A DNA stretch of 57,177 nt from an uncultured Dehalococcoidia bacterium. Its GTDB lineage: Bacteria; Chloroflexota; Dehalococcoidia; Dehalococcoidales; UBA1222. Position numbers and translations under genes: made by a program. Below, piece by piece: positions 9,363-35,454 of the stretch (positions within the stretch are counted from its first letter, which is position 1; each line of letters begins with the position of its first letter). The notes under the pieces were generated by a model. That model had not been told where the DNA came from. It did not search any database and saw only the letters and a program-made list of their open reading frames with translations. Where the stretch lies: contig CAIMVG010000012.1 of NCBI GenBank assembly GCA_903844845.1, positions 1-57,177 on the forward strand. Reading direction: 5' to 3'.

Positions 9363-9857
9363 AGACCGAGCCCCGTTATTATCGGGCTTGCTCCGACAAT
9401 CCAGATACTAGAGTCCGGAATCTCATATTTTGGATCCCTCGAGCCTCGAGGACAAGAACACCCGAGCGTCGGGTGCGAGAACCTTGGGGAACAACCCAAG
9501 GCACCCGAGCGTCGGGTGCGAGAACCTCGGGGCACATCCCAAGGCCTCGGGGGACCCCCAGGTTCGATTCTATACATTGGGGCATGATTGACAAGGCGTT
9601 TGTAGGGGCACGGCGCGCCGTGCCCCTACCCTGACAATCAAAAAGAGCCCCGACAATCCATTAGTTCCGACCGACGACATTTAGTATTGTCTCGCTGCGC
9701 TCAACAACCAAATGGAGGGGGTCACTCGAGCCTCGAGTACAAGGACACCCGGGTCTCGAGTGCGAGAACCTTGGGGAACATCCCAAGGCGAGGCCCGGGT
9801 CTTGGCCCGTGATGACAGGCGGGAGTAGGGGCAGCCCGAACCGCATTTCGTTTTGAA
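9363..9857. repeat. mosaic repeat block with tandem 43-bp modules
   Basis: No gene is seen. It contains a TTGCTCCGACAATCCAG half-element (about 9388), a CTCGAGCCTCGAG hairpin (about 9438) and two tandem 43-bp modules (9459-9501 and 9502-9544) of the same type as at 1387-1472. It also holds the palindrome GTAGGGGCACGGCGCGCCG (from 9602) and a further CTCGAG/CTTGGGG/CCCGGG set from about 9726 to 9830. Confidence 0.8.
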
Positions 9858-10804: not shown

Positions 10805-11289
10805 ACAGGCGTTTCAATCAGGGCGTATTATAAATGCGGCCCTATTAAATTATCATGCAATAAGGCGAAAATATGTTAAATATTTATTACAATTCACCTA
10901 AGTTGTTACAGGCACTGCTTTGTCATGCCGGAGGATGACGATCGTCTTTATCTGTCATTGACCCGACAATCCATTTCCGTTAATTTGTCGTGCCGACAAA
11001 CCATAAATAGCCTCGAAACAAACCGCCGGGATTATTTAGTATTATCTCGCTGCGCTCGATAAGGCAGAGGTAATGGACCCCGGATACTGCGGTTCCGGGG
11101 TGACAGGGTGGAGTTGGGGTTGAATCGGCCCTGGATCCGGGTCCGCCTAGGCGGAGAGGGTCGCGTGCCCCGTTTGTCATTGCGAGGAGGCGACCGACGC
11201 GGCAATCTCGTTCCCCATCCTCCCCTGTTCCCGCCCCGTTACGCCAGAGGATGACCACCCCCTTTCCTCCCCCTGTCACTGTCGAATTG
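10805..11289. repeat. gap with mosaic repeats
   Basis: The first 110 bases are AT-rich with no gene seen. From about 10922 the repeats begin: TTGACCCGACAATCCATTTC, a TCTCGCTGCGCTCGATAAGG module (about 11044), a CCCCGGATACTGCGGTTCCGG hairpin (about 11080-11100), the TCCGCCTAGGCGGA palindrome (about 11142) and a reversed GCCGCGTCGGT-type module near 11190. The block ends just before the selenoprotein operon promoter. Confidence 0.7.
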
Positions 11290-11336
11290 TTGACAGTATG
11301 CCACATAATATATTAATATTCGTATATTAATATATT
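11290..11336 (+). promoter_or_regulatory. promoter and 13-bp palindromic operator of the selenoprotein operon
   Basis: A consensus TTGACA lies at 11290-11295, with TAATAT (11314-11319) after 18 bases. AATATATTAATAT (11307-11319) and ATATTAATATATT (11324-11336) form a perfect 13-bp inverted repeat with spacer TCGT, lying over the -10 and the likely start site. Shape and AT content recall ArsR/SmtB operators. No such regulator gene is in the window. Confidence 0.7.
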
Positions 11337-11380
11337 TAATTCTTTCAGCCGTTTGGAACGCAGTCGAAAAGGAAACCAAG

Positions 11381-11665
11381 ATGATTGAAATAACCGACAT
11401 CGCCAAAACGAAACTGCAGGAAGTCCTGGTCAAAAACCCGGGCAAGTATCTGCGTGTTTTCATCCAGGGGCATGGCTGAGGCGGCCCCCAGCTGGGATTG
11501 GCTCTGGACGAGCCAAACGGGGAAGAGAAGAGCCACAAGGTCGACGATTTTGAAATACTGATCGCAGAGGACATCAAGCATTACGCGTACGGCGCCCTGG
11601 TGGACTACGCTGTTTCGCCGTATTACGAAGGATTCGTCATCAACAGCGGCCATTCGAGCTGCTGA
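11381..11665 (+). CDS. selenocysteine-containing HesB/IscA-like protein
   Basis: Reading ATG 11381 through an in-frame TGA at 11477-11479 to TGA 11663-11665 gives 94 residues. The TGA is codon 33, within FIQGHG-U-GGPQLGLALDEP. HesB/IscA-family proteins have a conserved Cys of the iron-sulfur site at this position. A HesB-like selenoprotein family is established in bacteria, so Sec is far more likely than a broken gene: the frame, family conservation and codon quality continue unchanged past the TGA, and a hairpin with SECIS geometry follows. AAGGA lies 7 bases before the ATG. The C-terminus ends SGHSSC. It heads an operon with AhpD-like and zinc-ribbon genes, suggesting a thiol/selenol redox or Fe-S repair role. 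Confidence 0.88.
11480..11516 (+). promoter_or_regulatory. candidate bacterial SECIS element
   Basis: TTGGCTC (11498-11504) and GAGCCAA (11510-11516) form a perfect 7-bp stem with the loop TGGAC. The loop starts 25 bases after the UGA and has G at its second position. Bacterial SECIS elements lie within the coding region about 16-37 bases after the UGA with a G in the first two loop positions, so the geometry fits. Confidence 0.75.
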
Positions 11666-11695
11666 TCGATTTTAATTGACCGGTGGTTTCTGAAA

Positions 11696-12169
11696 ATGGA
11701 AAAATATCGTAAAAGGACCTTTAAAAATCTGAAGGGATTCGCCGAAGGCCTGTCCTTTCCGGTCAGGAACAGGGCGCGGTTGAAGGGCATTAGATCGATA
11801 TCCCCCGCCTTTCGGGAACGCCTGATGCTGGCCGTTACCGCCGTGAACGGCTGCCGGTATTGTTCCTACTTCCATGCCGGGCAGGCATTGAAAAGCGGGA
11901 TTTCCTCAGCGGAGCTAAACCGCATGTTGTCAGGGGACATCGCGGACTGCCCGGAAGATGAGGCGGCGGCGGTGCTGTACGCCCAGCATTGGGCCGAGTC
12001 GGATGCCCGCCCCGACAGCGAAGCTGTGATAAGATTGGAGCAGGCCTACGGCGCCCAAAAAACACAGGCGATCGATTCGGTGCTTCAACTCATCCGGTTC
12101 GCCAACCTGTTGGGAAACTCGCTGGACTACGTGATATACCGCTTATCGTTCGGGAGATGGGGAGGATAA
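11696..12169 (+). CDS. AhpD-like/carboxymuconolactone decarboxylase family protein
   Basis: A 157-residue helical protein with the AhpD redox motif GCRYCSYFH (Cys53, Cys56, His60), the CxxC...H arrangement used for disulfide reduction in alkylhydroperoxidase AhpD. ISPAFRERLMLAVTAVN precedes it and IRFANLLGNSLD follows, both typical of the fold. Selenocysteine versions of this family are known, but here both positions are Cys. It begins 30 bases after the selenoprotein gene, whose likely job it shares: a cytoplasmic thiol peroxidase or redox partner. Confidence 0.85.
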   Translation: MEKYRKRTFKNLKGFAEGLSFPVRNRARLKGIRSISPAFRERLMLAVTAVNGCRYCSYFHAGQALKSGISSAELNRMLSGDIADCPEDEAAAVLYAQHWAESDARPDSEAVIRLEQAYGAQKTQAIDSVLQLIRFANLLGNSLDYVIYRLSFGRWGG

Positions 12170-12175
12170 TCCGAT

Positions 12176-12322
12176 ATGGAGAACGCACAGGAAAACAGCC
12201 CGAATGTGAAATGCCCGAAGTGTGCAGGCCAGGATGTCGAGGTTTTTACTATTTCGAACACGGTCTATTGCAAATGCCGGAAATGCGGGCATGGGTGGAA
12301 GATCGAGCTGGAAGAGGGATAG
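12176..12322 (+). CDS. 48-residue zinc-ribbon protein
   Basis: A small protein beginning MENAQENSPNVKCPKC with two zinc-knuckle pairs, CPKC and, after CK, CRKCGHGWK, a classic zinc ribbon. GGAGG lies 10 bases before the ATG and overlaps the end of the AhpD-like gene, which stops 6 bases earlier, so the two are translationally close. It could be a metal carrier or adaptor for the operon. No specific function is known. Confidence 0.75.
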   Translation: MENAQENSPNVKCPKCAGQDVEVFTISNTVYCKCRKCGHGWKIELEEG

Positions 12323-23854: not shown

Positions 23855-24380
23855 AACCTCGCACCGTGACGTATCCTGGATCCCGACTCGTGGGTCGGGA
23901 TGACCCTACCCCACCGTTGTTCCGCCTAGGCGGACAATTGAAATGGATCCCTCGAAGACACCCTCGAGGACAAGAACACCCGAGCGTCGGGTGCGAGAAC
24001 CTTGGGGAACAGGGTCGACTCTGGATCCCGGATCGCCGCCCGGGATGACAACGGGGGTAGAATGCATTTATTGTTTGTCGGCGCGACAAAATAATGGAAA
24101 TGGATTGTCGGATCGAGTCCGACAATGACAACGAGAGCGCCTGCGGTTCAGAGAGTTTGCTGTCAACCGTGAGTGAGATTCTGGATCCCGGGTCGCCGCC
24201 TGGGATGACAACGGGGGTAGAACGCATTTATTGTTTGTCGGCGCGACAAAATAAATGGAAATGGATTGTCGGACCGAGTCCGACAATGACAACCAGAGCG
24301 CCTGCGGTTCAAAGAGTTTGCTGTCAACCGTGAGTGAGATTCTGGATCCCGGGTCGCCGCCCGGGATGACGCGGGAAACA
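23855..24380. repeat. repeat block with a 160-bp tandem duplication
   Basis: The first part has GGATCCCGACTCGTGGGTCGGGATGACC-like uninterrupted R2 sequence (about 23878), CCGCCTAGGCGG (about 23923) and one truncated 43-bp module (about 23967-24009). From 24021 a 160-161-bp unit is repeated: CTGGATCCCGG lies at 24021, 24181 and 24342. Between them lie TTTATTGTTTGTCGGCGCGA, a TGTCGGAYCGAGTCCGACA hairpin and GCGCCTGCGGTTC. The two full units differ at only a few bases. Confidence 0.85.
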
Positions 24381-35364: not shown

Positions 35365-35454
35365 GGAGGGGTGACCGAGCGGCCGATGGTGACGGTCTTG
35401 AAAACCGTTGTCTCCTCACGGGGACCGTGGGTTCGAATCCCACCCCCTCCGCCA
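35365..35454 (+). tRNA. tRNA-Ser (anticodon TGA)
   Basis: The acceptor stem GGAGGGG pairs with CCCCTCC, followed by G and an encoded CCA end. The anticodon stem ACGGT/ACCGT holds the loop CTTGAAA with anticodon TGA at 35399-35401, reading UCA. A long variable arm (GTCTCCTCACGGGGAC) is typical of tRNA-Ser. The T arm is GTGGG-TTCGAAT-CCCAC. It has the length and elements of a functional class II tRNA, not tRNA-Sec. Confidence 0.97.

Follow-up and report, generated by a model that had tools for sequence, protein, structure and literature searches.

Structure of the locus

The window, by which we mean the whole stretch of DNA analysed here, comprises 57,177 nucleotides of an uncultured Dehalococcoidia bacterium. 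The features of interest are listed in Table 1. They consist of a hesB-like gene with a single in-frame TGA, promoter-like and operator-like sequences on its 5′ side, and genes for a carboxymuconolactone decarboxylase (CMD)/AhpD-like protein and a small zinc-ribbon protein on its 3′ side.

Table 1. Features of the hesB-like locus (positions within the window).
Feature	Position	Strand	Description and basis
Promoter-like TTGACA / TAATAT	11290..11319	+	18-nt spacer; 3 found vs 0.6 expected in region scanned
Perfect 13-bp AT-only inverted repeat AATATATTAATAT-TCGT-ATATTAATATATT	11307..11336		Over the -10 box; candidate operator
RBS-like (Shine-Dalgarno-like) AAGGA	11369..11373	+	7 nt 5′ of ATG; direct sequence reading
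hesB-like selenoprotein gene	11381..11665	+	94 aa, selenocysteine (Sec) = residue 33, then stop TGA; profiles, seven TGA-bearing homologues
Sec codon TGA (codon 33)	11477..11479	+	Falls on the first conserved Cys ligand of IscA/SufA when aligned to solved A-type structures
Predicted SECIS apical hairpin TTGGCTC-TGGAC-GAGCCAA	11498..11516	+	7 bp perfect; loop UGGAC lies 25 nt after Sec TGA; covariation, rules of PMC13188914
Terminal stop codon TGA	11663..11665	+	SECIS-rule hairpin absent 3′ of stop
CMD/AhpD-like gene, CxxC (NGCRYC)	11696..12169	+	PF02627 E 1e-8, TIGR00778
48-aa zinc-ribbon protein	12176..12322	+	

Translation of the gene with TGA as Sec (U) gave MIEITDIAKTKLQEVLVKNPGKYLRVFIQGHGUGGPQLGLALDEPNGEEKSHKVDDFEILIAEDIKHYAYGALVDYAVSPYYEGFVINSGHSSC, followed by the second TGA. 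An earlier, sequence-only reading of this DNA had placed the gene at exactly these coordinates and had stated that it escapes ordinary ORF calling, and both points held: in the table-11 ORF listing, the frame appeared on the + strand only as fragments of 32 and 55 aa. Antisense to it, the same listing contained two longer ORFs of 102 and 112 aa. That reading had also located the TGA at the conserved Cys position of a HesB/IscA-like protein and described the family sequence as undisturbed up to the second stop. Translation and alignment bore out the first statement, and the second agreed with seven homologues (44–54% identity to the window protein) that were intact past the TGA and free of the random decay for which they were checked. 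The two properties expected of a bacterial selenoprotein gene, an in-frame TGA at the conserved Cys/Sec site and conserved sequence downstream of it, were therefore both found.

The terminal codon is also TGA in 6 of the 8 genes of this clade, each time directly after a Cys. The possibility that the terminal TGA (11663) encodes another Sec was considered and rejected, because a hairpin obeying the SECIS rules was found behind only 1 of the 8 terminal stops and there was no conservation on the 3′ side. The hesB-like gene and the downstream CMD gene are in the same frame, with the terminal TGA as the sole intervening stop (11663–11695), and so a fusion by readthrough is possible on paper.

A conserved stem-loop behind the TGA codon

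The published rules for bacterial SECIS elements specify a loop of 3–9 nt with a G in the first two positions, a stem of 4–16 bp, a distance of 16–37 nt from the UGA, and an energy of at most -7.5 kcal/mol (PMC13188914). The 7-bp hairpin that had been remarked on as lying at the distance of a bacterial SECIS satisfied all of these limits, with a loop of 5 nt and an energy of -9.5 kcal/mol. Over the window as a whole, a perfect stem of at least 7 bp was found in the allowed range after about 2% of all TGA triplets, and all of the rules were satisfied after 5.7%. Therefore, the hairpin in a single sequence proves little, and it is its conservation and covariation across eight sequences that set it above chance.

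The hairpin was present in the same place in 8/8 sequences, with its loop 25 nt after the TGA (26 in homologue L027 if a three-base loop forms there), and in the seven homologues the loop was UGGAN. The pair 24-38 was G-C in six sequences and A-U in two, and the pair 27-35 was U-A in seven and G-C in one (L055), so that two base pairs showed double changes that keep the pairing (GC-AU and UA-GC). Overall, 91% of the hairpin cells were paired, compared to 20–48% in controls in which the partner was slid. With the UA-GC change, the codon GAG (Glu) becomes GCG (Ala) in L055; therefore, protein conservation does not explain the kept pairing, and it seems to be the pairing rather than the protein that is kept at this position. 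In a shuffle test on the eight sequences, uncorrected for relatedness, the outcome was moderate (2, 5, 5, and 31 of 500 shuffles were as high, by four measures), and the count of further pair types in the hairpin was not above chance.

Selenocysteine machinery

The host genome is 1.91 Mb in size and 98% complete. The search for selA, selB, selD, and tRNA-Sec that the sequence-only reading had recommended found all of them: contig C7 of the same genome carries tRNA-Sec (selC; anticodon tca), selD, selA, and selB one after another. The selD gene has its own in-frame TGA at the catalytic position (YSG-U-GAKL), followed 16 nt away by a 7-bp hairpin with the loop CGGGU, and is a second Sec gene in this genome. 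The alpha subunit of formate dehydrogenase (FdhA) was not found in the host genome. FlpD/MvhD was tried as a further selenoprotein and rejected, as the matched part of its homologue in this genome contains no in-frame TGA. In the window itself, a tRNA-Ser (tga) at 35365–35454 barely reached the Rfam tRNA-Sec threshold (47.6 vs 47 bits), which is a caution against calling Sec machinery by this model alone.

The presence of Sec had been thought notable because the best-known Dehalococcoides strains lack it. The premise stood, in that three near-complete small genomes of one genus (g4), which is probably Dehalococcoides, had neither selA nor selB. The taxonomic surprise was mostly removed: Sec has already been described in Dehalogenimonas alkenigignens (PMC4918011) and in other Dehalococcoidia or Chloroflexi (PMC3971608, PMC5736913), and selA was found in 98/156 genomes of the order, including 8/8 genomes seen of genus g5 (inferred, with PMC4918011, to be Dehalogenimonas) and 0/3 of g4. 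A 2006 survey counted three Chloroflexi selenoproteins.

Among the members of the order with the Sec-type hesB gene (hesB-Sec), the window genome included, selA was present in 5/6, and selB scored over the cut-off in G143, G167, G229, and G483. In G485, selA lies close to a contig end and selB was not seen. The exception for selA was G443, which is 85% complete and carries a TGA-bearing hesB, and in which neither selA nor a full selB was seen; this gap is most simply attributed to incompleteness of the genome.

Homologues, selection and phylogeny

The searches covered 393 genomes at class level and 156 at order level. The seven TGA-bearing homologues came from G143 (two copies), G167, G229, G443, G483, and G485. 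Together with the window gene, eight sequences of seven genomes thus have TGA at the same codon and no other stop, and no Cys form was found within the clade. Past the TGA, all pairs gave pN of 0.13–0.43 against pS of 0.37–0.93, ratios that are rough as many pairs are synonymously saturated, and this pattern indicates purifying selection on the part of the gene after the TGA. The two copies in G143 (L055 and L056) have different surroundings. Most genomes of the order had no homologue, and in a sister species of the same genus (G263) the Sec machinery was present and the hesB-Sec gene was not found. Therefore, hesB-Sec is dispensable or was recently gained or lost.

Ordinary Cys-containing A-type proteins, widespread in the rest of the class and phylum, are much more distant. 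In the phylogenetic tree, the eight Sec proteins formed one branch (support 97/93), apart from the Chloroflexota A-type proteins and the Cys-containing GCGGP proteins of Desulfobacterota; the tree was made without the Sec forms of Geobacter, Desulfovibrio, and Methanococcus. The scan of named genomes used a Cys pattern and thus returned Cys forms only, mostly from Desulfobacterota.

Family assignment and predicted structure

The best NCBIfam matches of the window protein were NF038090 (IscA_HesB_Se; E 1.1e-16, 61 bits) and TIGR01911 (HesB_rel_seleno; E 6e-9, 36.5 bits), followed by general A-type families. Both scores are below the curated cut-offs (85 and 66.35, respectively), and each of the eight members had an E value of 0.001 or lower with either model. 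The protein belongs to the HesB-like family as broadly defined in the literature (HesB/IscA fold plus UxGP), with UGGP at residues 33–36. A profile of the eight members matched the solved structures of IscA, SufA, and HI1723, with the Sec column on the first conserved Cys, and an AlphaFold model (pLDDT 82, pTM 0.66) had IscA and SufA as its best structural matches (Foldseek E 4e-6). On this evidence, the protein has an IscA/SufA/HesB fold in which selenocysteine replaces the first cysteine ligand.

Among the Cys and Sec positions, the selenocysteine alone is invariant across the eight members. The C-terminal Cys-x-Cys is missing in six of them, including the window protein; two (L028 and L061) end in CSC, and one of the six, L027, lacks any C-terminal Cys. 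The set of three Cys ligands of A-type Fe-S carriers (the first plus the C-terminal Cys-x-Cys) is thus absent from the window protein, the first ligand being Sec.

Flanking region and neighbouring genes

The 13-bp inverted repeat lies about 45 nt 5′ of the hesB start and is unique in the window, and 0/2000 base shuffles reached 13 bp. It was not found upstream of the hesB-Sec homologues. BLAST found no gene of the window flank at the homologous loci; by family, a CMD gene is downstream both in the window and at L055, where a transglutaminase-like gene also follows. The neighbours of L056 encode a cysteine synthase, an ArsR-like regulator, a rhodanese, and zinc ribbons; those of L057, a Fur-type regulator, thioredoxin, a YgaP-like membrane protein, ferredoxin, and a zinc ribbon; and a cysteine synthase and a cupin-like protein are encoded near L058. 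The ArsR, thioredoxin, ferredoxin, and cupin neighbours were named by sequence rather than by profile. The neighbours point towards the handling of sulfur and metals and towards redox functions, and because the neighbourhood differs between loci, a functional inference from it is weak.

Elsewhere in the window, an interspersed repeat of two palindromes (CACCCGAGCSTCGGGTGCGAGAACCT...) was seen at 1387–1473, 9459–9545, 9746–9771, and 23977–24002. Repeats of this type number six copies in the window, none being expected by chance, and occur twice as tandem 43-bp pairs. A tandem array with a 161-bp unit (24020–24370; 2.2 copies, 95% alike) adjoins this repeat.

Discussion

We consider that the hesB-like gene is a genuine selenoprotein gene, with a probability of about 0.96 on the comparative evidence. 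The comparison of sequences indicates that the organism decodes the UGA at codon 33 as selenocysteine with its own SelB and tRNA-Sec, and that the stem-loop starting 18 nt 3′ of the codon directs this.

A young pseudogene, too, typically shows a lone in-frame stop in a gene that is intact elsewhere; here this would be a HesB gene that once had Cys and was killed by a nonsense mutation. The homologues refute this explanation, because a TGA at one and the same codon of eight sequences from seven genomes, with no other stop and with purifying selection after it, is very hard to reconcile with decay. The frame would equally be open if TGA were read as an ordinary amino acid, by stop-codon reassignment or general readthrough. 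Such a reading is highly improbable given that the genome has the full Sec machinery, including a tRNA-Sec with the anticodon tca, that TGA also terminates hesB here and in most of the relatives' copies, that the TGA is at the position of a ligand Cys, and that the SECIS hairpin covaries. There is scarcely more reason to regard the match on the + strand as a shadow of a true gene on the minus strand (11239–11577 or 11345–11653): these antisense ORFs of 112 and 102 aa are free of stops, and some homologues have similar ones, but it is the + strand frame that matches the family profiles and agrees with the pattern of change, and the length and extent of the antisense ORFs vary from one homologue to another, as expected of shadows.

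The function of this selenoprotein can be proposed only tentatively. The selenolate may serve as a ligand for an Fe-S/persulfide species or for a soft metal, or may take part in thiol-selenol redox chemistry, and the protein could then be an accessory of anaerobic life rather than a general Fe-S cluster carrier; we regard this as plausible, at somewhat less than even odds. The alternative, an ordinary A-type Fe-S carrier that simply has Sec instead of the first of its three cysteine ligands, would account for the shared fold and clear homology with IscA, SufA, and ErpA, and for the absence of any other A-type protein among the NF038090 matches in the host genome at the sensitivity used. It is nonetheless rather unlikely, as the window protein and five other members are without the C-terminal Cys-x-Cys, one of them having no C-terminal Cys, and as most genomes of the order have no homologue, so that the order can in general do without such a carrier. 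To return to the accessory selenoprotein, a more speculative extension, which we think doubtful as a whole, is that the Dehalococcoidia have a Sec-only kind of HesB protein that would handle sulfur, selenium, or a soft metal by its selenolate instead of carrying Fe-S clusters, that would be controlled here by a local operator, and that would be one of a very small number of selenoproteins justifying the cost of the Sec system in a genome without formate dehydrogenase.

Taken together, the window gene is real, is correctly read as a selenoprotein gene, and represents a new branch of an established selenoprotein family (PMC1794560, PMC13188914). The HesB-like kind of selenoprotein is itself old, and what is new is the well-supported, separate, Sec-only clade; no published HesB-like selenoprotein of Dehalococcoidia was found in the literature searched, coverage of which was incomplete. 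The gene provides a sound case of recoding backed by covariation, and it indicates that in this order the Sec trait is kept for more than formate dehydrogenase. Because the window protein scores below the cut-offs of NF038090 and TIGR01911, current annotation would probably miss or truncate its gene. A clade in which selenocysteine is the only invariant Cys/Sec residue makes the function of HesB-like selenoproteins easier to test. The HesB-like selenoprotein of Methanococcus maripaludis has been shown by 75Se labelling and is dispensable for nitrogen fixation (PMC11097638).

In comparison to known systems, the A-type Fe-S carriers IscA, SufA, and ErpA have the fold and the position of the first ligand in common with the window protein, which differs from them in having Sec for Cys at that position and in the missing C-terminal Cys-x-Cys. 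The HesB-like selenoproteins (TIGR01911, NF038090; PMC1794560) are alike in fold, size, Sec site, and anaerobic hosts. Their UxGP motif (PMC13188914) is U-G-G-P in the window clade and once U-N-G-P, and a hairpin is located behind the codon in both groups, whereas the window protein falls under both curated cut-offs and its clade is apart from the Desulfobacterota Cys GCGGP proteins. The Sec system of D. alkenigignens (PMC4918011) consists of selC, selA, selB, and a Sec-containing selD as it does here, probably in the same bacterial order. The selenoproteins named in that organism are SelD and formate dehydrogenase, whereas in the window genome, in which a formate dehydrogenase alpha subunit was not detected, a HesB-like protein is a client.
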